Source of the DNA: Oscillospiraceae bacterium
GTDB taxonomy: Bacteria > Bacillota > Clostridia > Oscillospirales > Oscillospiraceae
NCBI GenBank assembly: GCA_017439425.1
Contig: JAFSJE010000024.1
Location: forward strand, 1-36,669
DNA length: 36,669 nt
Direction: 5' to 3'
The translations under genes and the position numbers were made by a program. The notes below the pieces were generated by a model. It did not search any database, was not told the DNA's origin, and saw only the letters and a list, made by a program, of their open reading frames with translations. Shown in pieces: positions 10,035 to 35,507 of the stretch (positions within the stretch are counted from its first letter, which is position 1; every line of letters begins with the position of its first letter).

Positions 10035-10055
10035 TCATTTCGGAGTGAACGCCAA

Positions 10056-15372: not shown

Positions 15373-16155
15373 ATGAAAAAACACAGCATTATCGCAATTA
15401 TCTGCATACTTGCAATCGCATTAAGTCTTGCACTCTCCGGCTGTTCAGCCTCGCCGAGGGACAGAATCGGCATAATCGGCGCAATGGACGTTGAGGTCGA
15501 GTCACTTAAGGAAGCAGCCAACATCACAAAAACCACATCCATCGCCGATATGGAGTTTTGTGAAGGCACGCTTGAGGGTAAAAGCGTGGTAATCGTAAAG
15601 TGCGGCATGGGCAAGGTCAACGCCGGAATCTGCGCAAATACGCTCATAAACGATTTCGGCTGCACTAAAATCATCAACACCGGAGTCGCAGGCTCGCTCG
15701 ACAACGAGATAGATATCGGCGATATCGTGGTTTCCGTTGACGCCGTTCAGCACGATTTTGACGTCGTGCATCTCGGTTTTGCAAAGGGTGAGATACCCTA
15801 CACCGGTCTTTTCGCTTTCCCTGCCGACGGCGATCTCCGGAGAGCCGCTGTCACAGCTGTTAAGGAGTCCGCTCCAGATGTCAGCGTCTTCGAGGGCAGG
15901 ATTTGCTCAGGAGACCAGTTCATCTCCACAAAGGAGCAGCGCGAGAAGATAATCTCCAGTTTCGGCGGAATGGCTTGTGAGATGGAGGGTGGCGCGATCG
16001 CTCAGACCTGCTATCTGAACCACACTCCGTTTGTCATAATCCGTGCCATCTCTGATAAGACCGACGAGACCGAGTATGTCGATTACGTCGTATTTGAGGC
16101 GCAGGCAGCCGCAAGATGCGCCGGCATCGTCCGCTATATGGTCAATAATCTTTGA
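15373..16155 (+). CDS. MTA/SAH nucleosidase with lipoprotein signal
   Basis: The protein matches the 5'-methylthioadenosine/S-adenosylhomocysteine nucleosidase family, which cleaves adenine from MTA, SAH or 5'-deoxyadenosine. The expected active-site residues are present: E41 in GIIGAMDVEVE, E205 in CEMEGGAIA and D228 in RAISD, equivalent to Glu12, Glu174 and Asp197 of the E. coli enzyme. Unlike the usual cytosolic enzyme, it starts with a hydrophobic signal and a lipobox (LSGC, Cys24), so it is predicted to be tethered outside the membrane. GAGGTG precedes the ATG. It is monocistronic between two terminators. The signal is clear; external location is inference. Confidence 0.9.
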   Translation: MKKHSIIAIICILAIALSLALSGCSASPRDRIGIIGAMDVEVESLKEAANITKTTSIADMEFCEGTLEGKSVVIVKCGMGKVNAGICANTLINDFGCTKIINTGVAGSLDNEIDIGDIVVSVDAVQHDFDVVHLGFAKGEIPYTGLFAFPADGDLRRAAVTAVKESAPDVSVFEGRICSGDQFISTKEQREKIISSFGGMACEMEGGAIAQTCYLNHTPFVIIRAISDKTDETEYVDYVVFEAQAAARCAGIVRYMVNNL

Positions 16156-16200
16156 CAACAAGCCGCTGTCCGGGATTTTTTTGAAACGGTTGAAATATTA

Positions 16201-16258
16201 GAACAGCACCTGATTTGTTAGGCAAACTTGCAGCTAACAATTGCGGTGCTGTTTTTTT
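16201..16258 (+). terminator. Terminator of the nucleosidase gene
   Basis: ACAGCACC and GGTGCTGT form the outer stem, TTGTTAG and CTAACAA an inner stem, and seven T follow. Confidence 0.85.
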
Positions 16259-16419
16259 GATTGATCGTATCTATTCAGCACCCATAAAAATTGTAGGAGT
16301 GCATAATAGAAATTATTAGGTTCTCAACCAAAGGTTTGCAAATCGTTTTGCTCTCATTTTGCAAGTGCTGTTCGCTCCACAACCGCGAAAAGTGAAGTAA
16401 AAAAGCAGCAATCGGCACA

Positions 16420-16775
16420 ATGACGAACCTCAAAAGCAGGCGGTATTTACAACACAATGCCACGATTGCAAAACTTCTCGAGCATAAGAACAAGAATTCC
16501 AACAACAGCTCAAAACCGCCCTCCTCTGACGGGCACAAAGGAAACGGGAGCCTTTGCAAAGTCTTGTAGTTGTGCTGAATACTATAGGCGCAGTCAGTAT
16601 CAACAGAGTGCATCAGATAATAGGGAACGTATTTGGGATTCCGCTTTCAACAGGAACCGTAAGAAACATTGTCAGCCGTTTTGCGGAAGCTATAAAGGCG
16701 AAGTATGCGCGTATAGGGGATAGTGTAGCTACACGTGCTTTTTTATGCGGACGAGGAAAACACACGGCTTGACCT
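16420..16775 (+). pseudogene. IS66-family transposase remnant
   Basis: Two frames carry pieces of an IS66 TnpC transposase. The first, from the ATG at 16420 to a stop at 16569, contains the hallmark NSNNSSKPPSSDG. The second, about 16554-16740, continues with the conserved LVVVLNTIGAVSINRVHQII segment and GIPLSTGTVRNIV. The frame break and the missing catalytic DDE part show the gene is dead. No clear insertion sequence ends were found. Confidence 0.8.
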
Positions 16776-17023
16776 TGGAAAGCTCACAGACGAAATCTGA
16801 GGGCGAGCAGGAGCGGGAGAAATTGTTGCGGAGCGGGCGCTGTTCACGGCGACTATCCGCTGAGGGGTGGCAAGTTAGAAACTTTGATTGCCTATTGTAC
16901 CCGTTTAATGGAGCGGGAGAAAAGAAGGTCACAGAATAAAAAAACAGCCTCTTTTTTGCAAATTGTTTACCTTTTCTGTTTACCTCAACTTTTTTGCAAT
17001 TCGTTAAGTGCCTCAAAAAGTGC
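16740..17023. other. Unassigned debris between IS66 relic and tRNA fragment
   Basis: About 280 bp with only short reading frames. Plus-strand pieces such as ADEENTRLDLGKLTDE and GGKLETLIAYCTRL look once-coding but are interrupted and not recognised. The rest is AT-rich. Confidence 0.4.
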
Positions 17024-17059
17024 AAAAAAAGAGCTGAAACCCTAAGATTTCAACTCTTT
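17024..17059 (-). terminator. Terminator behind the left tRNA-Pro 3' half
   Basis: On the minus strand AAAGAGTTGAAA and TTTCAGCTCTTT pair (one G-T wobble) and run into seven T, just after the CCA of the tRNA fragment. This is probably the original tRNA terminator. Confidence 0.75.
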
Positions 17060-17063
17060 ACTA

Positions 17064-17109
17064 TGGTCCGAGTGACTGGGATTCGAACCAGCGTCCTCTT
17101 GAACCCCAT
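17064..17109 (-). pseudogene. tRNA-Pro(GGG) 3' half, left attachment-site remnant
   Basis: The minus strand starts in the anticodon loop (ATGGGGT), continues with the stem half TCAAG, a T arm and acceptor half CACTCGG, and ends in ACCA. Compared with the right copy, an extra C in the T arm and a C-to-A change before it break base pairing, so it has drifted. No matching 5' half is nearby. A tRNA cut at the anticodon loop is a classic integrase attachment product. Confidence 0.75.
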
Positions 17110-17303
17110 CGGCCCATCCGAAACATTTTAAGGCCAAAAGTGGTCAATAATACAGTAATTAATGTAAAAGTTATAACTTTTAAGACGTTAATTTGCGTTC
17201 AGTACATTGTTTTTCGCGCTCATTCCAGTCAAAATTCCAGTCGGATTGGAAAAATCTTACAAAGTATACAAGAGGCCAAATTGAAGGCATTGGGAGGTAA
17301 ATA

Positions 17304-17657
17304 ATGGACGCTGCGAAAATCAAGTATCATCAAGCCGGAGACTATCTTTTGCCGAATCTTAAGGCACCGGATAATCCTAATATAGGCATATGGGGAATGC
17401 GCAGAAAGGAGCACCTGCTACAATATAAAGATCCAGTCTATACAGGACTGTTTCTCAGCGGAAAACTCAATTCACACCTTGAGGATACCGACAGAGCGGC
17501 TAAGGAAATGTTCGACAGGCTGATAAAAGAGTATGCCGCCCGCGAGGGCGTAACCGAAGAACTGAAGTCGAGAAATCAGTTGGAGTGGATTGCAAAAATC
17601 AACGCAATCCGTGAGCGCGTCGAAGAAGTAATATATGACGAACTAATTTATGCATAA
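17304..17657 (+). CDS. tnpV: TnpV family transposon protein, copy 1
   Basis: The 117-residue protein matches the pattern of TnpV, a small accessory protein of Clostridia transposons: YLLPNL near the start, then WGMRRKEHL, TGLFLSGKLNSHL, LIKEYA, EGVTEELKSRNQLEW and a C-terminal ELIY. GGGAGG lies six bases before the ATG. TnpV function is not established. It lies at the left edge of the island and has a close relative at 26266. Confidence 0.8.
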   Translation: MDAAKIKYHQAGDYLLPNLKAPDNPNIGIWGMRRKEHLLQYKDPVYTGLFLSGKLNSHLEDTDRAAKEMFDRLIKEYAAREGVTEELKSRNQLEWIAKINAIRERVEEVIYDELIYA

Positions 17658-17659
17658 TG

Positions 17660-17707
17660 AAATCGAGCCTCTCTCCCAAATCCGGAAGAGAGGCTTGATT
17701 TGTTTTT
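17660..17707. terminator. Bidirectional terminator between tnpV copy 1 and the SLH gene
   Basis: GAGCCTCTCT and AGAGAGGCTT form a stem within a longer AAATC/GATTT pairing; a T-run follows on the plus strand. It separates two convergent genes. Confidence 0.75.
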
Positions 17708-17710
17708 AGC

Positions 17711-19489
17711 TTACTTTACGAAATATCTGTAGAGCATGGTCACGATCTGAGCGCGGAGGCAGTCAGTTTCGCCGCCGAACTTATTATCGCCGATGCCCTC
17801 GGATACTCCGTTCTCCTTCGCCCACGCGGCTGCGTCGGCATAGAAGGCTCCCTCGGGTACGTCTGTGAAGCTCTCGGCAGTCTCTGCCTTGCCCTTCATC
17901 GCACGCTCCATAAAGGTCACCATCTGTGCACGGTTGACGGTGTCATCAACGCCGAAACGTCCATCGTCATATCCGAGCGTTACGCCGTTCTCTGCCGCCC
18001 AAAGGACTGCCTTGAAGTAGAAGGCATCAGGGTCGGTTACGTCAGTAAACTCAGACTTGGTTGCCGTAGGCTCTGGACAGCCAAGCGCTCTCCAGAGGAA
18101 GGTCACTGCCTGCGCTCTTGTGCAGGTGGCGTCGGGTGCGAAGTGGTTCTCATCAACGCCGTTGGTGATGCCCTTCTCTACCGCCCAGTCAACTGCCTTT
18201 GCATAGTAGCTGTTTTCGGGAACGTCGACGAACTTGACCTTCTCAAACTTCGCTTCGACTGTTACCTTTCCGTTCGGCTGAGTGAAGGAGTAGGTACCGT
18301 CAGTGTTCTTTGTAAGAGTTACTTCCTTGCCGCTTGCATCCTTCACCGTAAGCTTTGAAAGCTTATAGCCTGCGTCCGGGGTTGCCGTTACCTTTACGGG
18401 CTTATTTGCCTCAGCCTTCTCCGGATCGAGCTTGATAGTGCCGTGCTCTGTTTTAGAAATGGTATTATCGAAAGTTGTAGAAACAATGTAAGTATTACTT
18501 GAACTCCACTGTGCATAGAGCGTGGTGTCGGCGGTGAGCGTCACACTCTGACCATCCGTATAGGTCGTGCCGCCGCCGTTTGGGTCGGTACTCCAGCCGG
18601 AGAAAGTGTAGCCCTCGCGAGTGAAGGTATTGGCGTTGAGCGTTGCCGACTGACCTGAGATGAACGCCTGCGTAATCGTTGCGCCGACGCCGCCGTTGGC
18701 AAAATAGGTCACGGTGTGCACACCTTCCGTCAGCCCCGCCAAATCGTCATTGATGCCCTGCTCGAAGCCTTCCAGATTCGCGATCATCGTGACGCCGCTC
18801 TGCAAGCCGGACAGCTTCACGTCCTTCACGTCACCGTAGGTCGTCTCGTCGCCGATGGTCACATACGCGCGGACGTGATAGACGGTATCGGCGCTCACCG
18901 GCGTTATCTTGAGCGTATAGCAATTATTTCCGTCAAGTGCGCTCTTTGGAATCTGCGCGATATCATCGGTGAGCTTTACAGCCGCAACATTCGTTACGTC
19001 TGTGCCGTCGATTTTGAGGTTATTGCCAGTAGTTTCGGTGCTGTATACAAAACCTGCGGTATCGCCGCTTGCGATCCCATTGAGCGCGATGCTGTTTCCG
19101 TCAGCCGAGCGAGTGATCGAAGTGAAACCGGCAACCGGCTTCTCCTGCGACGCGTTGTTTGCATAGACGGCAAAGAGCGTGGTGTTCGCGTTTACTGTGA
19201 GCTTCAGCGGATTCGCGTAGCTGATTACAGAGCCGTCAGCCTCCCAATACGCGAAGCGCTTGTTTGCGACATCAGGCGCGGTGAGGCTTACGCTCTCGCC
19301 GTATCCGTAGGTATCGGAGAGAGCTCCAGACCATTCACCGTCCACATAGACCATAAGCTGGGTCTCCGTGGAAAAGATAAGGCTCATATCAACGGGGGCG
19401 GAATCATCCGCGTAGGCTGTGACGGCCAGCGCCGCAAGCAGGGCAACCAACACCGTCAGCAGCGTAAAATGCTTCAAAAACCGTTTCAT
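17711..19489 (-). CDS. SLH-domain surface anchor protein with InlB-type repeat
   Basis: The 592-residue protein has a signal peptide (about 1-27, ending AYADD). A central InlB_B/Listeria-Bacteroides repeat contains the family's GYTFSGWSTDPNGGGTTY and LYAQW. A beta-rich repeat (GYKLSKLTVKD) follows, then three SLH domains (about 418-592; FVDVPENSYYAKAVDWAVEKG begins the first). SLH domains bind secondary cell-wall polymers, so the protein should sit in the cell wall. It starts 11 bp after the large secreted protein's stop; its GAGGAGGTG site overlaps that stop, so the two genes form an operon. Adhesin or scaffold is plausible, but no ligand is visible. Confidence 0.88.
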   Translation of the reverse strand: MKRFLKHFTLLTVLVALLAALAVTAYADDSAPVDMSLIFSTETQLMVYVDGEWSGALSDTYGYGESVSLTAPDVANKRFAYWEADGSVISYANPLKLTVNANTTLFAVYANNASQEKPVAGFTSITRSADGNSIALNGIASGDTAGFVYSTETTGNNLKIDGTDVTNVAAVKLTDDIAQIPKSALDGNNCYTLKITPVSADTVYHVRAYVTIGDETTYGDVKDVKLSGLQSGVTMIANLEGFEQGINDDLAGLTEGVHTVTYFANGGVGATITQAFISGQSATLNANTFTREGYTFSGWSTDPNGGGTTYTDGQSVTLTADTTLYAQWSSSNTYIVSTTFDNTISKTEHGTIKLDPEKAEANKPVKVTATPDAGYKLSKLTVKDASGKEVTLTKNTDGTYSFTQPNGKVTVEAKFEKVKFVDVPENSYYAKAVDWAVEKGITNGVDENHFAPDATCTRAQAVTFLWRALGCPEPTATKSEFTDVTDPDAFYFKAVLWAAENGVTLGYDDGRFGVDDTVNRAQMVTFMERAMKGKAETAESFTDVPEGAFYADAAAWAKENGVSEGIGDNKFGGETDCLRAQIVTMLYRYFVK

Positions 19490-19500
19490 GGTACACCTCC

Positions 19501-22500
19501 TCAGTGTGTCATACCATTCGGGGTCGCTTTGACGGTGTAATTGGGGATAGAATCCCTTGTCACGGGGAGCGCCTCGGTGTAGATCGTGTGCTCGCCGGTG
19601 CTGTCCTTGTAGGTCAGATACGCCATACCGTAGATGTAGTGCTTGCCGTTGTTCTTCTGAATGAAGCTCAGGGGCGTCAGGGTGTTGACGGAGCCGGTCT
19701 GACTCTTGGTCTGCGCCTTGGTTTCCCAGTAGATCGGAGGATATTTCTCCACATTGACCGGCTTGCTTTCGTACATATACTCGCTCAGTGTAGCCGCAGT
19801 ATATTCATCCAATACGTTGTTCTCGCGGCTTTCGTAATAGTATTGGGGACCGTCGTCACCCGAGATGAGGTTCATGGTCTGATTCGTGAGGAAGCCGGAG
19901 AGGCCGCCGCCGACAAAGGGGATACAATTCACCGCAAGGTCAGCACCTATCACTGCCGCCTTCTGTCCGGTCGACTGCTTGTACTCCTTCATCTCGTAAT
20001 AAGAGATCCCGCCGTTGTCGCCCATTCTGATGCCCGCGTCCACGAAAGTATAGCCGTCCGGGATCTTGTAGTTCATCTGGAAGAGCACGCTTTTCCAATT
20101 ATAGCCCTGCGCCTGGGTGATGTAGTTTCTTGCGCTGAGGCTTATCTGAGGCTCAGTGATCGTGCTGACGTAGAGCGCTCTCACCTGCACGCTGCACGGG
20201 ATAATGAAGCCAACCATTGTTGCCGCGGCGAGATCCTCCCAAGTCTGTCCGTTGTCGGTGCTGTACTGCCACTTGGAGAACGCGTAACTGCCGATCTGGT
20301 CGAAAGCGTCAACGGTGACCTCTTCGTTTATCTTAACCGTTCTGGAGTCTTCCGTCATCCATGCGGAGGCTGCGCCGTCCTTCCAGTATGACACCTCAAG
20401 CTTTGCCTCGGTTGCGTTTGGCTTGGTATAGCCGCAGCCGGTGCAGAGGCCGCTCTCATTGAAGGTATGCGCGACGATATGTACGTCGAGGCAGCTACAG
20501 AACTCTATATGGAGATACGGACGATACTTGTAATATTTCTCAAGTGCGTCGCCGAATGCAGAGTAATCGACCGGCACGCAGGTATAGGAGTGGACATGCT
20601 TCCAATTGGCGTTCAGCTCAAGGTCTTCTGTAATTCCGGTATTGAAGTCGAAGGTCGAGCCCTTGGAGAAGAATTTGCCACTCTCGGTCACGCTCTTGCC
20701 GACTGTCCAGTTCTCAAGGATGTAGCCCGCCTTTTCGGCAGCCTGCGGCATTATGGGATCACCGTAGGTCGCGTCAATGCTTATGATTTCGCCGCCGTTG
20801 TTCGGATTGAACTTGACGTTCGGGGTAACGGGCGCCCAGACCGCGCTCAGCGTGGTGTTCCTGTATACGGGAACGACAGCGCCTGCCGCGTATATCTCCT
20901 CCGATGCTTTTCCGCTTTCGTCGTACTTAAAGCCTCTCCAGCCCTTGAAGGTGTAGCCGGTCTTAGCAGGAGCCGCGGGAGCCGTGACCGTACCGGCGGT
21001 GGTCACGTTGCCCTGTTCGTCTGTGGGGCAGACCGCGATCTCAAACTTTGAGTACTCGTCCCCGTCAACAAACGCCGTGGCGACGGCCTTGGCGTTTCCG
21101 CCGATGACCATGTACTGGTCGCCGGAAATGGCCTTCCAATCCGTATTTGTCTGCGCGCTGCAGGCGGTCAGACTCGCGCCGTCAAGCGCCGACTGCAGCG
21201 TGTCTGTATCAGCGTCCTTGCTCCCCTTGATAAACGCGATCTGATTGGGGTCAAAGGCGCTTTTCAGGCTCACGGACCAGACGGTCACGCCGTTCATATT
21301 CAGGCCCTTTGTCATTTCCGCCGCGTAAGTCTGGTTCTCGCTGTTTGTAAACTTGCACCATACCGTTTCCGTGTCTTGCACGGCTGTGGTGGGCTGATAC
21401 AGAACGGTAAACGATTTTACCTCGCCGAAGGTGACCGCAATGTTCAGATCGCCCTCGGCCAGGACGGGCATCGTGACCCGGTAAAGGTCGGTCTGGGCTG
21501 GGATGGCGAGGCCGTTGTCTTCGAGGTATTTCGCATAAGTCGTATAATCCTCGTCGCTGAACACGGTCAGGGCGGCGTTGGCACCATCCATGCTGTCGTT
21601 GAACTTGATGGTATAGTCGTAATCCTCGTCGGTGCTGACGCGAAGAACAAAGGTCTCTCCCGCCCGGCTGGTGAAGCTCTCGCCCGCCGGCGCAAAGTCC
21701 TCCGTCAGAAGCTCCGCCGCGCAGGCCGTATCGTCGGCGTCCGCGTTGAGCTTGACGGTAACGTCGCGCAGGGCGAAGGTCGCGGTGACGGTCACATTTT
21801 CGGCGGGCATTGTGAACTTATACGCGCCGTCGGTATCCGGCGTGATCGCGGTATCGTTGAATTTAAGCTCGCCGAGCTCATAGCCGACGTCGGGATTGAC
21901 GGTTACCGTTACCGTATCGTCCATCTGCGCCGTTGCCGCAACGGTAACGCTGCCGTGCGCTGTGGTGCTGTCAACACCGTTTGTGATCGTGTAGTTGATC
22001 TTCTTGAAGGTCGCGCTGATTGTGACGTCATCGGCGGGCATAACGAACGCATTGTTTGTTACGGTCACGCTGCCGTTTTTGCTGTCCTTGACTGTGAGCG
22101 TTTCAAGCTCGTAGCCGGTCGCGGGATTGACGGTTACCGTAACCGTGTCGCCCATCTTGGCGGTCTGAGCCACGGTAACGCCGCCGTTTGTCATATCGCT
22201 CTTGTTGATACTGTAATCGTGGAGCTGGAAGGTCGCGGTGACGGTAACGTTTTCCGCCGGCATGGTGAAGGTGCCGTTGTTGCCGTCCTTATCCGCGGCG
22301 ACCGTGGTTTTGTCGCCGTCCTTTGTCACTTTGATGTCTTTCAGCTCATATCCGGTAGCAGGTACCGTCGTGATGGTGACAGTGGCGTTCGCGGCAGCGA
22401 CCGCGGGAACGTCGAAATCACCGTTTGCTTCGGCGGCGTTAAAGCTCTCGTCCTTCTTGATTGCGTTGACGCCGTAAGTCACAGTCGCTGTGTAGGTCGT

Positions 22501-24231
22501 CGGCGTTTCAGCGCCGTCAGAAACTGTAATGCGAGCCATATAGAAGCCGTTACCGCTCGGAGCCTCTGTGCTCCATGTTGATCCGCCATTGCTGGAATAC
22601 TCGATATTCTCTGCAGTCACGCCAAAGTCGTCGAAACCCGTAAGGGTCGCCGAACCGCCGCCCGCCGTGGGCGCGCAGATGGTCAGCGTGGCAACGTATT
22701 CGCTATCCTTGAGCGGACAAGCTGCTTCTCTGTCCACCGCCATGCAGGTCGTCGTAATGGTCGCGCCATTGACAGTGTAGCCGGTAAAAGCGTGTGCGTG
22801 AGTCGGCTTCATGTCAAAAGTACGAGATTCAGAGTTGAAAGTGACCTTCGACAGGTCAAGCTGCAAAGCGGGGCGTATATAATCTTCATAAGTCACACTG
22901 GAACCTCTGTCGTAGACAACGCCTTGTGAGTTCACACACGCCGCCTTCGTAGAATCGTCGCCGGGCGAGCGGAGCCACCACCATTCGCCAATGGCTCTGA
23001 CAGCTTCCGGAAGGGCTTGTGCCTCAGATGTGCTTAAAAGGTAGAGCTTTACACTCTCATACTCAACAGACGATTCGCCATCATAACTGCTGGTTGTTAA
23101 AGTAACTGTCTTTATGGCATCCGCCACACTTGCAAAGCTATTACCATCATAGGTGAAAGTTTCTATGTATTCTGCTATATTGGAAATGTCGTAGTCATTT
23201 CCGCGATCTGTTTCCTCATTGAATTTCATCTGCCCCATTGAACCCGTTGCAAGCAGGGTAACGGTTCCGGCATTTGCTGCCGTGGAGTTGTCCTCGATGA
23301 TGTACCAGTCCATGTTGTTGAACCCGACCACCTTGTACTGCAGGGTGTCGTAGGTATCGCTGCTTTTGACCGTATAAGCGTTATATGCCGAGGGTGTATT
23401 CACTGTCACGGCGCAGGTTGCGCTCTTGGTGTTGTCTGCGTTGCTCGTAACGGTGACGGTGGCGTCGCCCACAGACATTCCCTTTGCATAGACGGTCAGC
23501 GCAGAGGTGGCGTCCATACCTACCTCGGAATTACAGCTCGAATCAAAATAGAGTTTGACGTTGCTGTTATTGACGCCCCATTTCACGGTCCTGTCATCGG
23601 CGCCATTGGGGCCGTCGGGCTTGACGGAGGCAGTAATGGCGACGATATCTCCCGCGCTGATCGCCTCCGCGGAAGAATCAAAGGTCACGCTCGACACGCT
23701 GACACTTTCCTTCTCATAGATTTCGATCTTCGTAATCTGAGCGTTATGATTACTGTTGATCTTCAGCTTATAAACATTTCCCGCAGTCTGATAGGCGGAA
23801 GCGATTTCAAAGGTGTTCGTGCCGGTTGATCCTGTCACCTCTGTGCTTACCGCATTGTCCCCGACGAATATGTTGGTTTTTACAGACGTAGAAGCTCCGC
23901 TATGCCCTGTGACAACTATTTTGGCAACGGCAAAATCAAAGGCGGGCAGCTTAAGATAGGAATTCTCCTTGCCCAGTATCAGGAACCCAGAATTTTGTTT
24001 GTAACCATTACTACCGGTACCATACAGCTCGATAGAATATGTTCCGTTAGTGTAGCTGCACAAAGCGGTTGTGTTACTGTTAGGTATGCCCCAGCCGTAA
24101 TCCGTAAAATCCAGAGTAACCTTCGGGGATGCCGCTGCCTGCGCCGGTAGGCTCATCCCCGGCAGCAGCCCCAGCATCAGCGCGAGGCTGAGCAGCCAGC
24201 TCAGGGCTTTTGTTCTTGCTTTGTGTTCCAT
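19501..24231 (-). CDS. Large secreted multi-repeat surface protein (1576 aa)
   Basis: The start at 24231 is chosen because AAGGAG lies eight bases upstream and a signal peptide (ending LPAQAAA) follows at once; a more distal in-frame ATG at 24348 has neither. After the signal come beta-rich and Ig-like segments, then a DUF6273-like domain (about 285-460, with EWWWLRSPG and YIRPALQL). Three repeats end in TFTMPAENVTVTATF-type sequence (near 655, 733 and 813), and two InlB_B-like repeats (about 1085-1210) follow. The C-terminal third is unrecognised, with a GLCTGCGYTKP cysteine motif. There is no LPxTG, C-terminal helix or SLH, so retention probably depends on its SLH partner. Confidence 0.85.
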   Translation of the reverse strand: MEHKARTKALSWLLSLALMLGLLPGMSLPAQAAASPKVTLDFTDYGWGIPNSNTTALCSYTNGTYSIELYGTGSNGYKQNSGFLILGKENSYLKLPAFDFAVAKIVVTGHSGASTSVKTNIFVGDNAVSTEVTGSTGTNTFEIASAYQTAGNVYKLKINSNHNAQITKIEIYEKESVSVSSVTFDSSAEAISAGDIVAITASVKPDGPNGADDRTVKWGVNNSNVKLYFDSSCNSEVGMDATSALTVYAKGMSVGDATVTVTSNADNTKSATCAVTVNTPSAYNAYTVKSSDTYDTLQYKVVGFNNMDWYIIEDNSTAANAGTVTLLATGSMGQMKFNEETDRGNDYDISNIAEYIETFTYDGNSFASVADAIKTVTLTTSSYDGESSVEYESVKLYLLSTSEAQALPEAVRAIGEWWWLRSPGDDSTKAACVNSQGVVYDRGSSVTYEDYIRPALQLDLSKVTFNSESRTFDMKPTHAHAFTGYTVNGATITTTCMAVDREAACPLKDSEYVATLTICAPTAGGGSATLTGFDDFGVTAENIEYSSNGGSTWSTEAPSGNGFYMARITVSDGAETPTTYTATVTYGVNAIKKDESFNAAEANGDFDVPAVAAANATVTITTVPATGYELKDIKVTKDGDKTTVAADKDGNNGTFTMPAENVTVTATFQLHDYSINKSDMTNGGVTVAQTAKMGDTVTVTVNPATGYELETLTVKDSKNGSVTVTNNAFVMPADDVTISATFKKINYTITNGVDSTTAHGSVTVAATAQMDDTVTVTVNPDVGYELGELKFNDTAITPDTDGAYKFTMPAENVTVTATFALRDVTVKLNADADDTACAAELLTEDFAPAGESFTSRAGETFVLRVSTDEDYDYTIKFNDSMDGANAALTVFSDEDYTTYAKYLEDNGLAIPAQTDLYRVTMPVLAEGDLNIAVTFGEVKSFTVLYQPTTAVQDTETVWCKFTNSENQTYAAEMTKGLNMNGVTVWSVSLKSAFDPNQIAFIKGSKDADTDTLQSALDGASLTACSAQTNTDWKAISGDQYMVIGGNAKAVATAFVDGDEYSKFEIAVCPTDEQGNVTTAGTVTAPAAPAKTGYTFKGWRGFKYDESGKASEEIYAAGAVVPVYRNTTLSAVWAPVTPNVKFNPNNGGEIISIDATYGDPIMPQAAEKAGYILENWTVGKSVTESGKFFSKGSTFDFNTGITEDLELNANWKHVHSYTCVPVDYSAFGDALEKYYKYRPYLHIEFCSCLDVHIVAHTFNESGLCTGCGYTKPNATEAKLEVSYWKDGAASAWMTEDSRTVKINEEVTVDAFDQIGSYAFSKWQYSTDNGQTWEDLAAATMVGFIIPCSVQVRALYVSTITEPQISLSARNYITQAQGYNWKSVLFQMNYKIPDGYTFVDAGIRMGDNGGISYYEMKEYKQSTGQKAAVIGADLAVNCIPFVGGGLSGFLTNQTMNLISGDDGPQYYYESRENNVLDEYTAATLSEYMYESKPVNVEKYPPIYWETKAQTKSQTGSVNTLTPLSFIQKNNGKHYIYGMAYLTYKDSTGEHTIYTEALPVTRDSIPNYTVKATPNGMTH

Positions 24232-24249
24232 AAAATTGTCTCCTTTCGC

Positions 24250-24366
24250 GCCGCCGTACGGCGGCCATTTCATAGGTTGGAACAAGAACGGCATCGTCTT
24301 GTGAAAACACAAGACGGTTTTGCGTACGCAAAACCGTTTCCAATGCATACCAAATCCCTGTTTGGT
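24250..24366 (-). promoter_or_regulatory. Palindrome-rich 5' leader of the surface operon
   Basis: Between the promoter and start codon lie four dyads: GCCGCCGTACGGCGGC (24250-24265, next to the ribosome binding site), GTCTTGTG/CACAAGAC (24296-24315), a 24-bp perfect palindrome at 24314-24337 centred on GCGTACGC, and TACCAAA/TTTGGTA (24348-24367). The second and third share bases and could be mutually exclusive RNA structures. No known riboswitch was recognised. Confidence 0.65.
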
Positions 24367-24395
24367 ACTTTATCATGCTGCATCGTCAAAGTCAA
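24367..24395 (-). promoter_or_regulatory. Promoter of the surface-protein operon
   Basis: On the minus strand TTGACT (24390-24395) is 17 bp from TAAAGT (24367-24372), giving a leader of about 130 bases. Confidence 0.65.
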
Positions 24396-24477
24396 TATGG
24401 TGCAATTATTTTGTTAGAAATTATTAAGAACGCGGGGCTGTAAAACAGTACCAACGCAACGTGAGAAGTCGTGAAAT

Positions 24478-24538
24478 GATATGCCCCCTCTATGATGACA
24501 GTTTTATCTTTCACTGTCTCTCATAGAGGGAGCATATC
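24478..24538. repeat. 25-bp inverted repeat at the recombinase-like gene start
   Basis: Left arm 24478-24502 (GATATGCCCCCTCTATGA then TGACAGT) and right arm 24513-24538 (ACTGTCTCTCATAGAGGG then AGCATATC) pair almost fully around a 10-base loop. The ATG at 24492 lies inside the left arm. No T-run follows. Confidence 0.8.
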
Positions 24539-25829
24539 ACAGAGCATAGATATTCAAGCTTATAAAAATACGATAACACCGGCATATTCTGCTTTGCGCT
24601 ATTCGGAGGCGTATGTTCTCTACAAGCACGCAAAATCGTACAATAAAGCCACCGTTCCGATGCCAAAGGATAGGGAGAAGCTTACTCCGTATCAGAAGCG
24701 GTTAGCTGACAGCATTATAAAACTCAGTGCCGGTCTTCCAATTAAACCTATGGCAGAGATTTCCGGTCGTGAGGTTGCCGAGTTTATAAAAAGCAATAAT
24801 CTAACAGACGATAATGTTAGGGAGCTTCGGAATTTTTGGATGTACTGCCGCGACAGGGGTGTTTACTCAGGAGGTAATCCGTTTCCCGAAACTAAAAGCA
24901 GCAAAAGAACAAGACAGGGAGCTATGCGAGGAGCATTCGTGGCAAATGAGCTTTCTGATGATCAGATTGATGAAAGCTTTGAACTTATAATGCAGCACCC
25001 TGGAGGAGAGAACTGTGCTGTTGGACTTCAGCTTTGGGCTGGCCTTGATGTTAAAACTGTCGTTGCTCTGAGATGGAAAGATGTAGTGTTCCATGATAAT
25101 GCGGACTTTACAACAATTATACTGCTTCAGAACGACAATGCCGGCGCTACACATATATACACAAGGCCTATCCTTCCTCAGGCGTCGAGAATGCTTCATA
25201 TGATGCATGATATAGCGACCGAATGCGAAGATAATGAAGAAGTTAATGAATCCTTTGTTGTCTGCAAAGATAATGGTAAGCCTTTTACGGCAGATGAGAT
25301 AGTAAAGTCAACAAAGAGGTTCATCAAGAACTTAGACAAAGATAACAGGTTCAGCACAATGAAGGGTACTGCTGTTGCTATGTCTACCCGGATAATGAAC
25401 AATACTTATCGTGGAATCCTTATAAGAAAGTGCGGGCTGACCGACGATACATATACATTCAAGTTTCTATGTGGTGAATCTCTTTCTACCGACGTCAGCA
25501 GCGACCATTATATAAGCTTTACAGATAAAGATGCGCAAGCAAGACTGTTTGCGCTGCTGAAAGTTGCGGGGCCTGTCCAATCATTCCAAAACAGAATGGA
25601 AGAGATAGACGAGGGCGAGTATGTTCGCTACAGGATATATCCGCCGACTACCGCTCACACGGCAGTGTTGAACGCAAAGCTTGTATTTGAAAATGCAGAG
25701 TCTTTTACGATTGAGTCTGAGCACGGAGTGACCGGAGATTTGACAGTGCGAAGAATTGATGAAAACGGCAAGAAAAAGCGAAAGCCACGTAAAAAGAAAA
25801 TAACTGACGGTCAAAATGACAATAAGTAA
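24492..25829 (+). CDS. Tyrosine recombinase-like protein with degenerate catalytic site
   Basis: The 445-residue protein has an integrase-like core-binding region (about 90-135, ISGREVAEFIKSNNLT to GGNPF) and a catalytic-domain-like region. By eye, GLDVKTVVALRWKDV matches the box I helix with its arginine replaced by Asp. MNNTYRGILIRKCGL matches the box II helix without the HxxR pair, and FLCGESLSTDVSSDHYI matches the final box with Tyr kept but Glu in place of His/Trp. A lysine-rich tail follows. The ATG at 24492 has no Shine-Dalgarno and lies in a large inverted repeat; an in-frame stop at 24477 bars an earlier start. It may be inactive, or a DNA-binding derivative. Confidence 0.65.
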   Translation: MMTVLSFTVSHRGSISQSIDIQAYKNTITPAYSALRYSEAYVLYKHAKSYNKATVPMPKDREKLTPYQKRLADSIIKLSAGLPIKPMAEISGREVAEFIKSNNLTDDNVRELRNFWMYCRDRGVYSGGNPFPETKSSKRTRQGAMRGAFVANELSDDQIDESFELIMQHPGGENCAVGLQLWAGLDVKTVVALRWKDVVFHDNADFTTIILLQNDNAGATHIYTRPILPQASRMLHMMHDIATECEDNEEVNESFVVCKDNGKPFTADEIVKSTKRFIKNLDKDNRFSTMKGTAVAMSTRIMNNTYRGILIRKCGLTDDTYTFKFLCGESLSTDVSSDHYISFTDKDAQARLFALLKVAGPVQSFQNRMEEIDEGEYVRYRIYPPTTAHTAVLNAKLVFENAESFTIESEHGVTGDLTVRRIDENGKKKRKPRKKKITDGQNDNK

Positions 25830-25870
25830 AACGTCTGAAAATTTTGTAAAAAAATTTTTTCTGAAGAGCG

Positions 25871-25920
25871 AAAAAAGCCCTGAAATCCGGTACGTTATAT
25901 TGGACAGAAGGGCTTTTATT
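25871..25920 (+). terminator. Terminator after the recombinase-like gene
   Basis: AAAAAGCCCT and AGGGCTTTTA pair around a loop of about 29 bases, with T residues after the stem. Confidence 0.6.
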
Positions 25921-25951
25921 CCACACGAATTCCACACGAAATTCCACACGA
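25918..25951. repeat. Three tandem 11-bp repeats, possible recombinase arm sites
   Basis: ATTCCACACGA occurs at 25918-25928, 25929-25939 and 25941-25951. The position, between the recombinase-like gene and the tRNA-derived end, is where arm-type integrase sites are usual. The ATTCCA core is shared with the ATTCCAGTC repeats at the opposite element end. Confidence 0.65.
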
Positions 25952-25990
25952 AATATTTTAGGTTTTCTTAAGTACCCTAAAAAGTTACAA

Positions 25991-26026
25991 AAAACCGCTG
26001 TTTTCACAAGAAAACAGCGGTTTTTA
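25991..26026 (-). terminator. Terminator behind the right tRNA-Pro 3' half
   Basis: A 15-bp near-perfect stem (AAAACCGCTGTTTTC/GAAAACAGCGGTTTT) with a T-run on the minus strand lies directly after the CCA end of the tRNA fragment. Its sequence differs from the left terminator, as expected if each element brought its own. Confidence 0.85.
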
Positions 26027-26027
26027 T

Positions 26028-26071
26028 GGTCCGAGTGACTGGATTCGAACCAGCGGCCTCTTGAACCCCAT
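26028..26071 (-). pseudogene. tRNA-Pro(GGG) 3' half, right attachment site
   Basis: The minus strand shows the anticodon loop ATGGGGT (anticodon GGG), half-stem TCAAG, a T arm with five pairs (GCTGG-TTCGAAT-CCAGT), acceptor half CACTCGG, A and CCA. All visible parts are intact, unlike the left copy. The 5' half is absent: the next bases match the element end of the left copy. Confidence 0.8.
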
Positions 26072-26265
26072 CGGCCCATCTGAAACATTTTAAGGCCAAA
26101 AGTGGTTATAAATACAGTAATTAATGTAAAAGTTATAACTTTTAAGACGTTAATTTGCGTTCAGTACATTGTTTTTCGAGCTCATTCCAGTCAAAATTCC
26201 AGTCGGATTGGAAAATTCTTACAAAGAATACAAGAGGCCAAATTGAAGGCATTGGGAGGTAAATA

Positions 26266-26619
26266 ATGGACGCTGCGAATATCAAGTATCATCAAGCGGG
26301 TGACTATCTTTTGCCGAATCTTAAGGCACCGGATAATCCTAACATAGGCATATGGGGAATGCGCAGAAAGGAGCACCTGCAAAAATTTAAAGATCCAGTC
26401 TTCACAGGTCTCTTTCTCAGCGGAAAGCTCAATTCCCACCTCGAGGAAACCGACATAGCCGCAAACGAGCTGTTCGAGAGGCTGATAAAAGAGTATGCCG
26501 AAGCTGACGGAATTACCGAGGAGCTGAAGGCTCAAAATCAGATGGAATGGATCAGACGAATGAACGGCATACGTGCAAGAGTTGAAGAGACGATCTATTC
26601 CGAATACATCTACAAATAA
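26266..26619 (+). CDS. tnpV: TnpV family transposon protein, copy 2
   Basis: The 117-residue paralogue of the tnpV product at 17304 is nearly identical over the first 38 residues and diverged afterwards (EEDTD-type changes, ADGITEELKAQNQMEW, C-terminal SEYIY). The ribosome binding site and upstream sequence are the same. The divergence shows the duplication is not an assembly artefact of one copy. Confidence 0.8.
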   Translation: MDAANIKYHQAGDYLLPNLKAPDNPNIGIWGMRRKEHLQKFKDPVFTGLFLSGKLNSHLEETDIAANELFERLIKEYAEADGITEELKAQNQMEWIRRMNGIRARVEETIYSEYIYK

Positions 26620-26631
26620 ATAATGCACTGT

Positions 26632-26668
26632 GCCTGCGGTGAGATACTTCCCTCGCCGCAGGTCTTTT
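26632..26668 (+). terminator. Terminator after tnpV copy 2
   Basis: CCTGCGG (about 26633-26639) pairs with CCGCAGG (26656-26662), followed by TCTTTTT. Confidence 0.8.
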
Positions 26669-26761
26669 TGCAATGGCATAATTTTCTCTTGACAAAGCTA
26701 TACTATTGTACAGGCGGGGGAACCAAACCGATCACCCGGCTGATTCCCCCGTTATATGTGA

Positions 26762-27076
26762 CTAAATGATTTCTTTCCAGTTGCGGCGTCCGTATAAGAT
26801 TCTGCGGACTTCCATCACGTTGTCGATTACAACGTAGAAAATGGTAAAGCTTTTGACCTGTATGCGATAGTATGGATACTTGCGCTCTTTTTTACTCTGA
26901 TACTGATCAAAGGCTTCTGCGTTTGGCAGACGCTCATAGATTGCCTTTTCGACTGCGTCAACAAGATTTTCCGCCGCAATCGGGTTTTTCAAGCGAAACA
27001 CGATATAGTCAACTATCTCGCTTAAGTCTGACTCAAACAGCGGCAGTATGCGCAGCTCATAGTGCTTTTCGCTCAC
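26762..27076 (-). CDS. ParE/RelE-family toxin
   Basis: The 104-residue protein has the ParE/RelE fold pattern: YELRILPLFESDLSEIVDYI at the start, the helix region NPIAAENLVDAVEKAI, KYPYYRIQVKSFTIFYVV and VRRILYGRRNW at the end. Such toxins cleave ribosome-bound mRNA (RelE) or poison gyrase (ParE); which applies here cannot be told. The start is GTG at 27076, with AGGAGG seven bases upstream, rather than an ATG at 27127 that lies deep in the antitoxin gene. It overlaps the antitoxin end by 20 bases. Confidence 0.85.
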   Translation of the reverse strand: MSEKHYELRILPLFESDLSEIVDYIVFRLKNPIAAENLVDAVEKAIYERLPNAEAFDQYQSKKERKYPYYRIQVKSFTIFYVVIDNVMEVRRILYGRRNWKEII

Positions 27077-27329
27077 GGATACGCCTCCTGACTCTGCCGA
27101 ACACTTCGTCGGCGGCAAAACGCTCATCGCTTAGTTCCGCCGCAAAGTCGGCCTCGTCGAGCTTCAACTCAATGTCATCCGTAAGCTCGGAATATTTCTC
27201 CAGACTCATCACTACCATTGAGCCGTATCCGTTCTTGGTCAGAAAAACGGGCTCTCCGTTTTTCAGTACAGCTTCTTCAATTTCGGGATACTTATTCCGA
27301 AGGTCTGATACTGGTCTGATGTTCAGCAT
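27057..27329 (-). CDS. Phd/YefM-family antitoxin
   Basis: The protein of about 90 residues has the Phd/YefM N-terminal DNA-binding pattern (IRPVSDLRNKYPEIEE, PVFLTKNGYGSMVVMSLEKY) and an acidic, probably disordered C-terminal part that would wrap the toxin. ATG at 27329 is preferred, 10 bases from GGAG; a GTG at 27338 sits too close to that site. It is first in the toxin-antitoxin operon. Confidence 0.88.
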   Translation of the reverse strand: MLNIRPVSDLRNKYPEIEEAVLKNGEPVFLTKNGYGSMVVMSLEKYSELTDDIELKLDEADFAAELSDERFAADEVFGRVRRRIRERKAL

Positions 27330-27346
27330 AACGCTCACGCTCCTTT

Positions 27347-27381
27347 ATCATAATATTATCATAATATTATCCTCACGTCAA
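27347..27381 (-). promoter_or_regulatory. Toxin-antitoxin promoter with tandem repeat operator
   Basis: TTGACG (27376-27381, minus strand) is 17 bp from TAATAT (27353-27358). The motif ATCATAATATT occurs twice in tandem (27347-27357, 27358-27368), covering the -10. This is a good candidate for autoregulation by the antitoxin complex. Confidence 0.6.
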
Positions 27382-27423
27382 CGGTTAATAACCGATTGTT
27401 CTATAAGTTGGAGGTATGCCGAT

Positions 27424-27789
27424 ATGATAAGACGTTTTCACTGTAAACGCAGTCATTTTGTGTATGTATATTTAGGGGCTTCAATGCTTGGATCCTTTAT
27501 ATACTTTATAATTCATAGGGCGGATTCTCTTGATATTGAATACATAGCAACTCATTTATTCCTGCTCTTCACGCTTTACGGATTATTTCTGTTTCCAATG
27601 CTGACGTTATATAGACCGAGAACCTTATGGATATTCCTCAACAATGGGACCTCTCTTCCGTTTTTATCCAAGGAGCAGGCTGCCTTTGATGCACCCGCCC
27701 CTATGATGACCACATGCGGATCTTGTAATCGCTTATTCTTCACGTGCGGAAACCTATATGATTTTCTTGACATAAACATTTCACCTTAA
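27424..27789 (+). CDS. Small two-helix membrane protein, C-terminal half replaced
   Basis: The 121-residue ORF starts at ATG 27424 with GGAGG nine bases upstream. It has two membrane helices (about residues 13-30 and 43-63) after a basic N terminus. From about residue 75 the frame runs antisense through a SIR2-like gene start on the opposite strand, so the C-terminal ~45 residues are probably accidental. I do not recognise the family. It looks like a gene truncated at about 27640 by a deletion or insertion junction. Confidence 0.45.
   Translation: MIRRFHCKRSHFVYVYLGASMLGSFIYFIIHRADSLDIEYIATHLFLLFTLYGLFLFPMLTLYRPRTLWIFLNNGTSLPFLSKEQAAFDAPAPMMTTCGSCNRLFFTCGNLYDFLDINISP
27636..27773 (-). pseudogene. 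SIR2-like defence gene, 5' remnant
   Basis: From ATG 27773 (AAGGTG eight bases upstream) the minus strand encodes about 46 residues with HVVIIGAGASKAAC and DKNGREVPLL. This is the NAD-binding start of SIR2-like proteins often found in anti-phage systems. The similarity stops near 27636 and a stop follows at 27576. The rest of the gene is missing. It begins 17 bp after the HsdS-like fragment, suggesting an old operon. Confidence 0.55.
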
Positions 27790-27790
27790 G

Positions 27791-28024
27791 TCAATTCAAG
27801 AAACTTTGAATAATTTTGCTTCTTTTGTCACTTAATAAATCCAGTTGCATCTGCGCCATCTTGATCGATTCCTCCAGTTCAAAAACCTTTTCCACGGTGT
27901 CGTTTTGAACCGTAATATCCGGTACAGTGAAAGTAATCCCCTGAACTCTATCAATTGATGCACGATATGAGCGAGAGAAGCCGAGCTTTGTCAAGGGGGA
28001 TTTCAAACTTTTTTGAAAGTTCAT
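27791..28024 (-). pseudogene. Type I restriction specificity subunit (HsdS)-like C-terminal remnant
   Basis: The 77-residue ORF has the end pattern of an HsdS target-recognition half: FTVPDITVQNDTVEKVFELEE followed by a helix ending in DLLSDKRSKIIQSFL. The matching N-terminal recognition domains and hsdM/hsdR are absent. No convincing ribosome binding site precedes its ATG, so it is treated as a remnant. Confidence 0.5.
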
Positions 28025-28122
28025 ACTATGCTTCCACGCATACCGCGATATTTACTATTATCGCGCTCGTCGCTTCATACACGTCCATACTGGGCTCATC
28101 ATACTTAGGCCGCATAATGAAC

Positions 28123-28167
28123 TATTTACAATAAGCATTTTACATTCCAATTTTCGAGCCGTATTAT
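28123..28167 (+). promoter_or_regulatory. Hydrolase promoter with shared 24-bp box
   Basis: TTTACA (28139-28144) is 17 bp from TATTAT (28162-28167). The stretch 28123-28146, containing AATAAGCATTTTACATT, recurs with one mismatch at 30614-30637 in front of the lipoprotein/GH3 operon. Confidence 0.7.
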
Positions 28168-28194
28168 AAAATAAAAAACGGAAAAGGGGATTTT

Positions 28195-29169
28195 ATGGAA
28201 CGCTTCAGCTTTAACGAGGGCAAGACCTACGAGGTCTATCCTGAAATCGAAAACAGGCCGGTCTACTACCGCAATCGCTACGGGACTCAGCTCGCGGCGG
28301 ATATTTTTTTTCCGGAGCACTTCGATCCCTCCAAAAATTACCCCGCCGTTATCGTGAGCCACCCTCACGGCGGAGTCAAGGAGCAGTCAGGCGGACTATA
28401 CGCTCAGGAGCTTGCCAAGGCAGGCTTCATCGGCTTTGCCATCGATCTTTCGTCAAACGGCGGCAGCGGCGGCTCTGCCCGACATATCTCTACGCCGGAG
28501 GGACACGTTGAGGACATCCAGGCAGCGGTAGATTACCTCGGGACCCGTCCGTTCGTTCTGCGGGACGGCATAGGGCTTGTTGGAGTCTGCGCCTCCGGCA
28601 GCTTCGCCGTGGCTGCGGCTTCAACCGATATGCGCATAAAGGCAGTAGCTGCTGTGACTATGTACAACATCGGCGAGAACTACCGCACTATGTTCGGACT
28701 GAGGGACGCCGAAGCTCGCAAGGAGATGCTCCGCCATGCTGGAGAGCAGCGTTGGGCGGAATATGAGGGTGCGGACACGGAGTTTATGATGGAATTCCCG
28801 CGTGTGGTCACTGAGGAGATATATTATTCCCTCGATCCCGTTTCCCGGGAGTTTTTTGACTACTACCTCAATAATCGGCGCGGACGGCACCAGTATTCAG
28901 TGGGTAAAATAGCTCTTAACAGCCTTGCGGCGCTCTTCAATTTCGACCCCTACATCAATATGGACCTTTTGGGAGGCCGCCCCATACTTGTGGTCTGCGG
29001 CACCGAGGCCCATAGCCGAGTCTACAGCGAGGAGTGCTACGCGAAGGCCTACGAGCCGAAGGAAATGTATTGGGTAGAGGGCGCGGGGCATTGCGATCTG
29101 TATGACGACAAGACAAAGATACCCTTTACCAAGCTCGCCGACTTCTTCGGCGCTAATTTGAGAAAGTGA
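28195..29169 (+). CDS. Alpha/beta hydrolase (dienelactone hydrolase-like)
   Basis: The 324-residue cytosolic protein has the alpha/beta hydrolase layout: VIVSHPHGGVKEQSGG near the oxyanion hole, DLSSNGGSGGS, the nucleophile elbow GVCASGS with Cys132 in the nucleophile position, and VEGAGHCDLYD with His299. A cysteine there is known in dienelactone hydrolases and relatives. AAGGGG lies before the ATG. A broken aldo/keto reductase gene starts four bases inside its end (GTGA), so they formed an operon. The substrate is unknown; an ester or peptide bond is likely. Confidence 0.82.
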   Translation: MERFSFNEGKTYEVYPEIENRPVYYRNRYGTQLAADIFFPEHFDPSKNYPAVIVSHPHGGVKEQSGGLYAQELAKAGFIGFAIDLSSNGGSGGSARHISTPEGHVEDIQAAVDYLGTRPFVLRDGIGLVGVCASGSFAVAAASTDMRIKAVAAVTMYNIGENYRTMFGLRDAEARKEMLRHAGEQRWAEYEGADTEFMMEFPRVVTEEIYYSLDPVSREFFDYYLNNRRGRHQYSVGKIALNSLAALFNFDPYINMDLLGGRPILVVCGTEAHSRVYSEECYAKAYEPKEMYWVEGAGHCDLYDDKTKIPFTKLADFFGANLRK

Positions 29170-29642
29170 GCAGATATCTGGAAAACGCAAAAATCGCTCT
29201 CGGCGCCTGGGCCTGGGGTAGGGCGAAGGGAGTTGAACACCCTTCGCCCTAACGATGGCACATTCGGGGGCAGTCTCAGCGTAAATGACTTGCGTCCAGT
29301 ATTTGACAGGCTATGGAGCTGGGGCTAACCCTGTGGGACACTGCCTATGTCTATGGGATGGGCGAGTCGGAGATGACGCTTGGAGGCTTTCTCCGAACGG
29401 TTTCGAGGGAAAGTTATCAGATCTCAGCGAAATTTACGCCTCAATGCGCTTCTCCACGCGCCGAAAACGCCGTTATTGAAATGTGCAGGGAGAGCGCCCA
29501 CCTTTTGGGCGCCGAGTATATGGACTACTACTGGATCCATAATCCGGTGTGCGCGCCGAGATGGATAAAGGAGCTCATTCCACTTGCAAAAAGCGGGAAA
29601 ATAGGCAAAATAGGCATAAATGGCCTCGGCCGCCATAACTGA
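29166..29642 (+). pseudogene. Aldo/keto reductase, broken and truncated
   Basis: From the GTG at 29166 the sequence encodes KIALGAWAWG, then after an inserted palindrome DGTFGG and NDLRPVFDR. After a one-base loss near 29311 it continues with MELGLTLWDTAYVYGMGESE, LLGAEYMDYYWIHNP and LAKSGKIGKIG, all aldo/keto reductase landmarks including the Asp-Tyr region. It stops at about half the normal length (~320 residues). Three lesions are seen: the 29-bp insertion, the frameshift and the loss of the C-terminal half. No function remains. Confidence 0.85.
29219..29251. mobile_element. 29-bp perfect palindrome inserted at a TA, with TA duplicated
   Basis: GGGCGAAGGG (29221-29230), nine bases, and CCCTTCGCCC (29240-29249) lie between TA and TA. 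Removing the 29 bases and one TA restores the aldo/keto reductase frame as ...AWG-N-DGTFGG..., exactly as the family expects. Confidence 0.65.
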
Positions 29643-29650
29643 ATACTATT

Positions 29651-29682
29651 ACAGCCGACTCATTAGAGGCGGCTGTTTTTTT
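29651..29682 (+). terminator. Terminator after the aldo/keto reductase relic
   Basis: ACAGCCG (29651-29657) pairs with CGGCTGT (29670-29676), followed by seven T. It lies between convergent transcripts. Confidence 0.85.
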
Positions 29683-30556: not shown

Positions 30557-30583
30557 TCGTCACTGCTCCTTCTCTTTTTTGTT

Positions 30584-30612
30584 ATTTTATCATACAAAAA
30601 CCGTATTGTAAA
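30584..30612 (-). promoter_or_regulatory. LysR gene promoter
   Basis: On the minus strand TTTACA (30607-30612) is 17 bp from TAAAAT (30584-30589). Its -35 mirrors the -35 of the divergent promoter, forming TGTAAA-N17-TTTACA. Confidence 0.65.
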
Positions 30613-30613
30613 G

Positions 30614-30658
30614 TATTTAGAATAAGCATTTTACATTTTGAAGCTGCCATTTTATAAT
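30614..30658 (+). promoter_or_regulatory. Lipoprotein/GH3 operon promoter with shared box
   Basis: TTTACA (30630-30635) is 17 bp from TATAAT (30653-30658). The upstream box 30614-30637 matches 28123-28146 with one difference. It is probably a target of the neighbouring LysR. Confidence 0.75.
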
Positions 30659-30708
30659 AAAACTGCGCTAAAGAAAGCGCGGAAAAAAACAAAAAGGAGA
30701 AACGAAAA

Positions 30709-31299: not shown

Positions 31300-31314
31300 T
31301 TCGGGAGTACGAAG

Positions 31315-34341: not shown

Positions 34342-34345
34342 GAAT

Positions 34346-35206: not shown

Positions 35207-35267
35207 CATAAGGGCTTTCCGCGGTAATTTGCCACTGAGAGCTATTCAAAGAGGAGAGGAGACGGGT

Positions 35268-35498: not shown

Positions 35499-35507
35499 GT
35501 CAAAGAG

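Follow-up and report, generated by a model that had tools for sequence, protein, structure and literature searches.

The tRNA-Pro(GGG) halves and their repeats

The window, by which we mean the whole stretch of 36 669 nucleotides that was analysed, is one contig (C10) of a draft genome of an uncultured gut bacterium of the Oscillospiraceae (2.3 Mb in 89 contigs, 95% complete). In it, a 9 kb block that contains surface-protein genes and a gene for a tyrosine-recombinase-like protein, P0001, lies between two direct repeats, each of which consists of the 3' half of a tRNA-Pro(GGG) gene and a tnpV gene. Repeated integration, or stacking, of mobile elements at tRNA-Pro(GGG) is well supported by the features described here. 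The repeats had been noted in an earlier reading of the window, referred to below as the original prediction, and they are real: positions 17062–17538 and 26025–26500 share 93.5% identity over 477 nt (86.5% over 623 nt when the alignment is extended), and both tnpV genes match PF14198.

Each repeat opens with a tRNA half that extends through CCA. Both halves begin exactly at the anticodon loop, ATGGGGT, with its first base, in agreement with the proposed cut there. The inner half (26027–26071, minus strand, 45 nt) has the same sequence as the intact tRNA, and window positions 26021–26071 are 100% identical over 51 nt to the intact gene on another contig (G000:C35:25984-26060). Of the 38 tRNAs typed by ARAGORN (38 of 39 matches; C55:3153-3232 was uncalled), no other is a tRNA-Pro(GGG), although genes for Pro(CGG) and Pro(UGG) are present too. 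The intact gene might have proved to be unconnected with the elements; the opposite was found, as a tyrosine integrase gene follows it directly and the class of arm-like repeat beside it is the same as at both window repeats.

The outer half (17064–17109, minus strand, 46 nt) was thought to have lost its pairing. Its stems are in fact kept, and it carries instead one extra C, which gives an 8 nt T loop, and one change in the variable loop. Nor is its status as a displaced original established: the same two changes are borne by a third copy of the repeat end on contig C75, which is interrupted within tnpV, and a fourth scar, cut down to the final tRNA bases, adjoins an AraC gene on C35. ARAGORN calls a tRNA with an 8 nt T loop from the outer half when it is attached. 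The tRNA-Pro(UGG) might cover for a tRNA-Pro(GGG) altered in this way, and we offer only as a suggestion that the altered tRNA could act as a `lock' on the island. The attachment (att) cores are direct repeats that are identical or nearly identical to the 3' part of the tRNA, as in an accretion array. Of 16 sites compared, 15 have a shared core that starts with ATGGGGTTCAAGAGG; the exception is a degenerate scar in the relative G472.

Arm-like repeats, stacked sites and the stretch shared with G026

Each window half is followed by a terminator-like hairpin on the minus strand, at 17020–17063 for the left half (−16.1 kcal mol−1) and at 25985–26026 for the right half (−22.9 kcal mol−1). Both are more stable than all 100 mononucleotide shuffles of the same sequence, and this held after the CCA at each of the 19 sites folded (18 of tRNA-Pro(GGG) type and one Pro(CGG) control, the control included). 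Some hairpins are common to two sites, namely to C75 and the 26.03 kb site, to the tRNA genes of this genome and of G026, a relative from the same genus that served as the main comparison for the window and C35, and, nearly so, to G305 and G478; others differ.

Around the halves we note short tandem repeats that resemble integrase arm sites and fall into three classes. The pair GACTGGAAT, in two copies, is found at 17222–17242 and at 26184–26204, and its class is that found beside the C35 integrase; GTGTGGAAT, of the second class, is found in three copies at 25918–25949; and GGTAAACA, of the third class, in two copies at 16964–16984, next to the left half but on its host side (all minus strand). 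No match to the tandem arm pairs, the GGTAAACA pair included, arose in 100 shuffles of the window. The three putative arm motifs keep regular distances from the tRNA halves, with the far-side copies at −172 to −155 and the near-side copies at +81 to +145. The GACTGGAAT pair occurs at exactly four places in the 2.3 Mb genome, namely the two ends in the window, C75 and the tRNA/integrase site of C35, against none for a control; it is on the near side at the C35 and G026 tRNAs, whereas at both window sites (17.06 and 26.03 kb), C75 and contig C58 of G026 it is on the far side. The second motif, GTGTGGAA/GTGTAGA, is on the near side at 26.03 kb, at the G305 and G478 tRNAs and at the 17.8 kb site of G395, and on the far side at G305 26.7 kb and G395 93.8 kb. 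For GGTAAACA, the near-side sites are 17.06 kb and, at a similar distance, the G395 tRNA, and the far-side site is G395 17.8 kb. None of the three motifs is present at the Pro(CGG) control site. The exact GACTGGAAT motif was found in three records of the genome_contigs collection, where tnpV adjoins it and a tRNA-Pro half follows in all three (for the third, as read on the G026 contig of equal length); two Ruminococcaceae records repeat the order of tnpV, GACTGGAAT arms and tRNA-Pro half. GGCCGATGGGGTTCAAGAGG is not present in viral_contigs.

Stacked sites are also seen in other genomes. G305 has its tRNA and two more halves on one contig (56.1, 26.7 and 7.7 kb), the outer 19 kb unit encoding an open reading frame of 2985 residues with a signal-like start. 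On a single G472 contig there are sites at 409.7 and 355.5 kb and a scar at about 382.1 kb; here a relative of the P0001 gene faces the degenerate scar between the tRNA and the outer half. G478 has one outer site 59 kb from its tRNA on a single contig. The array is continuous with its tRNA in G305 and G472; in the present genome the tRNA and the window are on separate contigs. We also note that in G305 and G478 another partial tRNA-Pro 3' end comes within about 150–250 bp after each outer half; these mini double scars lie at about 1450–2050 in L161, 2350–3050 in L160 and 1600–2400 in L166.

To the right of the inner half, window positions 26022–35586 are shared with G026 (contig C58) at 97.9–98.7% identity (92.8–100% per 500-base bin), and the shared stretch ends at the tRNA half. 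It contains hydrolase, LysR and GH3-like genes, the tnpV at the far end of the shared element (26266–26619, plus strand; the G026 protein is 93% identical) and genes for a ParE-like toxin and a Phd/YefM-like antitoxin (26762–27338, minus strand; PF05016, E = 1e-10, and PF02604, E = 8.5e-12). The four long host alignments between the window and G026 show 78.6, 85.0, 88.0 and 88.9% identity, compared with 97.9 and 98.7% for the two element alignments; a 170-base host repeat (95.9%) maps to a different G026 contig. On C35, where the tRNA is accompanied by an integrase (PF00589) and an HTH_17 excisionase-like gene, identity with G026 jumps from 82–84% in AraC to 98–99% from the tRNA into the integrase. 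Because of this contrast in both places, it looks as if one recently shared element had its two ends here, one in the right part of the window and the other at the integrase on C35. There is one tnpV end of this kind in G026 and there are two in the window.

The same comparison bears on the idea that the locus is a chimaera of assembly or binning. The draft is in 89 contigs and the tRNA lies on another one, but G026 has the same right boundary with the following 9.5 kb, and the arm pattern is met again in other genomes; we regard an artefact as very improbable. A 94 bp direct repeat (97.9% identity) is present close to both contig ends, at window positions 74–167 and 35875–35968, and is perhaps a dispersed repeat that stopped the assembly.

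The surface-protein block and the P0001 family

Between the repeats, and after the left tnpV (17304–17657, plus strand), lie genes for an SLH-domain surface protein of 592 residues (17711–19489, minus strand; PF00395, E = 3e-28) and a repeat surface protein of 1615 residues (19501–24348, minus strand; PF18998 and DUF6273). The repeat is not uniform: until about 17.45 kb the left tnpV agrees with the element end, and past 17.5 kb it resembles a different tnpV, that of a tnpV–SLH module on contig C84 (28–37 of 50 positions identical per block before 17.5 kb, 45–50 of 50 from 17.5 to 17.75 kb). The simplest explanation of this mosaic would be recombination or gene conversion inside tnpV. One could go further and suppose that the left repeat is no scar at all, and is instead a copied tnpV end of the element which moved with the SLH module by homologous recombination between tnpV genes. 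The mosaic itself fits this account, as do the convergent tnpV–SLH pairs on C84 and C4 as well as in the window and the C75 copy broken inside tnpV. However, the left half has its own hairpin and, at the distance seen elsewhere, arms of another class, which is unexpected for a copy of the 26.03 kb end. We therefore consider a pure copy unlikely and recombination on top of a genuine scar the probable history. SLH surface-protein genes were also seen adjoining tRNA-Pro scars or P0001-related genes in other stretches (L009:2584-9174, L048:5971-10650, L107:4288-7680 and L116:115-2553).

P0001 (24492–25829, plus strand) belongs to what we call the B family and is a degenerate, N-terminally truncated tyrosine-recombinase-like protein, as judged from homology, fold and profile. 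It is without the first 113–138 residues of its three nearest relatives, and an inverted repeat (24476–24540) lies where homology to the relatives is lost (homology begins at 24531–24570). An AlphaFold2 model (pLDDT 77.5, pTM 0.54, 14-row alignment) has the tyrosine-recombinase fold: all 39 PDB matches at E ≤ 0.001 have titles naming a tyrosine recombinase, and profile comparison agrees. The proposal of a recombinase-like gene next to an intact right half is thereby upheld. A search of the PDB by sequence gave a single match (E = 0.73), and searches of genome_contigs and viral_contigs gave nothing. The catalytic R..HxxR..H set is incomplete, with Arg I found in none of the 14 aligned B members and Arg II and the GH histidine substituted in P0001; the nucleophilic tyrosine (Tyr340 in P0001) is kept in all 14.

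These features bear on whether the segment from 17.06 to 26.03 kb is one intact integrative element with P0001 as its working integrase. The gene does lie at the tRNA-side end with its C-terminus towards the half, as in the loci L109, L111 and L112. Against this, P0001 is truncated and without the first catalytic arginine, the partner gene described below is absent, and the segment ends differ in arm class, being GTGTGGAAT on the right and GACTGGAAT on the left with GGTAAACA just outside the left end. An intact element is thus highly improbable. With ends of two classes, we read the block as a fusion of two decayed elements. The original prediction of two related elements stacked with a wall-protein operon accordingly stands for repeated integration at one tRNA and is not supported for the 9 kb segment as a single related element carrying that operon, given also that the left tnpV is mosaic with a module seen twice elsewhere.

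A search of 400 genomes of the family with P0001 gave matches in 19, its own included; a search of 149 genomes gave only its own and one weak match. We examined 15 of the 18 others, omitting the three weakest (E = 8.7e-5 to 4.1e-4), one of which, L047, is an ordinary integrase. In all 15 loci (L103–L117) a second gene, A, whole or partial, is directly upstream of B (12 in alignment A3, L105 and L109 by pairwise comparison, and L115, from G377, by profile with two internal stops); a divergent third gene, C, is sometimes present, and its proteins give a sub-threshold match to the beginning of an ISL3 transposase model. The window has the truncated B only. An Int-like gene is in the same stretch in 7/15. 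In three loci (two from one genus) the C-terminus of B points to an intact tRNA-Pro(GGG) no more than 0.7 kb away; it faces a tRNA-Pro scar in one locus and the end of guaA in two near-identical loci (one with a whole guaA, the other with its last 12 nt only), and in one more a tRNA-Pro(GGG) is 2.8 kb upstream of B. The other eight have neither in the stretch read, and in one of these, L115, the contig stops with the gene. The guaA loci, L113 and L114, have the guaA-terminal 12 nt in common and diverge beyond, which suggests a candidate att core at the guaA 3' end. In an order-wide sample of 394 genomes, searched separately, B exceeded 200 bits in five, and in all four other than the present genome A was directly upstream at more than 400 bits; G305, G263 and G377 were already among the 15, and the new one, G515, is from another family and has a stop in B.

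The A and B proteins scanned fall below every curated cut-off of Pfam and NCBIfam, with weak recombinase matches only (best, A of L109, PF00589, E = 3.5e-5). The PHROGs integrase family phrog_1 matches two of four B relatives (5e-10 and 6e-8; a third at 0.01) and three of four A proteins (2e-12 to 2e-6), with no match for P0001 itself. These matches make A and B remote relatives of integrases rather than a fold without kin. PADLOC had no match for A or B and a weak one (0.006) for one C protein.

Members of A keep an Arg/Lys/Arg/GH pocket, and B keeps the tyrosine without Arg I. Flp donates its tyrosine between identical subunits. By extension, A and B could form an obligate hetero-recombinase in which A gives the Arg/Lys/Arg/His pocket and B the tyrosine in trans, the window B being an orphan remnant. 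This idea is weakened, since six of the 12 A relatives read (L108, L113, L114, L117, L109 and L105) have a tyrosine 7–13 residues past the GH histidine and six do not, and since MrpR (PMC10516654) shows that a retained tyrosine need not imply catalysis; we hold the idea to be doubtful. An accessory DNA-binding or repressor role for B has about even odds, and the remainder falls to some other or a decayed function.

Proposed layers of the array and comparison with known systems

In our judgement (probability about 0.74), the window contains the outer and decayed portion of an array built up by accretion at tRNA-Pro(GGG), in which elements of at least three arm classes used one crossover in the anticodon loop. 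Each element would leave a tRNA 3' half and then a terminator-like hairpin. Counting outwards from the C35 tRNA, the first layer would be an element of the C35 integrase class (Int35), which was recently shared with the sister species and has the integrase and excisionase-like gene at one end and tnpV at the other, at 26.03 kb. The second would be a GTGTGGAAT-class element, represented by its tRNA-side end with the truncated B. The third would be a join, formed by deletion or recombination, that imported the SLH and repeat surface genes and, by way of recombination in tnpV, the far end (at 17.06 kb) of a further element of the Int35 class. A stub of a GGTAAACA-class element would form the fourth layer, outside the third.

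Several observations weigh against this reading. The arm-like repeats were assigned from position and similarity and are putative. One stray match lies at +49 (G305 7.7 kb); the G472 tRNA, G472 355.5 kb, the G472 and C35 scars and G478 97.8 kb have no copy of any of the three motifs; the near side is without one at C75, C58 of G026, G305 26.7 kb and G395 93.8 kb, and the far side at G305 7.7 kb. A hairpin at every tRNA-Pro site, occupied or not, also fits an ordinary tRNA terminator. Single 500-base bins overlap in identity (host 78.4–94.4%, with one tRNA-bearing bin at 96.6%; element down to 92.8%), although element and host separate over whole alignments. The intact tRNA and the window are on separate contigs, so that we infer their linkage. 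No empty site was found: AraC was matched in 0 of 20 same-genus tRNA-Pro loci, and G026 itself is occupied. The G026 integrase aligns with that of C35 only from residue 80, and the mobility of the element in G026 may have ended. The label `integrative and conjugative element', which implies relaxase and conjugation genes, is unproven for it. Lastly, the AraC–tRNA-Pro–integrase block seems to be inverted relative to G026 with a truncated scar beside AraC, and the history is therefore more complex than simple stacking. At the junctions of the apparent inversion (L009:9908-9981 and 10007-12623; window 15373–17063) there is a truncated tRNA scar at one and transposase debris at the other, including an N-terminal fragment (16468–16566, plus strand; PF20042, DUF6444, E = 1.9e-5, with 25.6 bits where the cut-off is 27) which we take to be IS66-like.

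Far-end arms of the Int35 class are present at 17.06 kb as well as at 26.03 kb. The integrase of C35 could therefore remove its own element by itself, which would restore a normal tRNA, or take out the element and the island as one cis-mobilized block, which would leave a tRNA with an 8 nt T loop. A CIME is a cis-mobilizable remnant. The island is flanked by att sites and has no intact recombination gene, as in a CIME, and may work like one, but we do not file it as such because its two ends are of different integrase classes. This suggests a way in which surface-protein genes come to be placed between att sites and might travel with a neighbouring element. More broadly, several integrase classes appear to have used one tRNA gene in common, and the arm-like repeats make the layers readable like strata; a recombinase-like two-gene system is found in several genera of the family, in some at tRNA-Pro(GGG) or guaA.

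We recognized no literature on the A–B pair, or on stacking at tRNA-Pro(GGG) in these bacteria, among the matches listed, subscription papers being outside the search. For TnpV of Tn4451 and Tn6104 (PMC3158075), which is of the same family by name, a role in excision has been postulated from its likeness to λ Xis; here, in contrast, tnpV occupies the far end of an element whose tRNA end bears a tyrosine integrase. Tfp of SE and GinC of GInt (PMC10214605 and PMC5385486) are likewise proteins of tyrosine-recombinase fold without catalytic residues from multi-recombinase operons. The present system differs, as far as the descriptions go, in having two genes, B with the tyrosine and A with Arg/Lys/Arg/His. 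Modules of the GInt, SE, RIT and Tn554 type combine two or three recombinase genes with an accessory gene in one operon; the relatives have the A–B pair, sometimes with the divergent C, and the window a truncated B alone. Unlike MrpR (YopR), the SPβ phage repressor (PMC10516654), B genes adjoin a partner gene and in some species lie at element ends. Close parallels are seen with a 2004 system cited in PMC5053989, which has direct-repeat att sites, stacked related elements and deletion-derived remnants that keep their att ends; what differs here is the anticodon-loop site in tRNA-Pro(GGG), the three arm classes and remnant ends of different class. Accretion arrays at tRNA genes are a known kind, and this one is distinguished by layers that are unusually readable and by one unexplained protein family.

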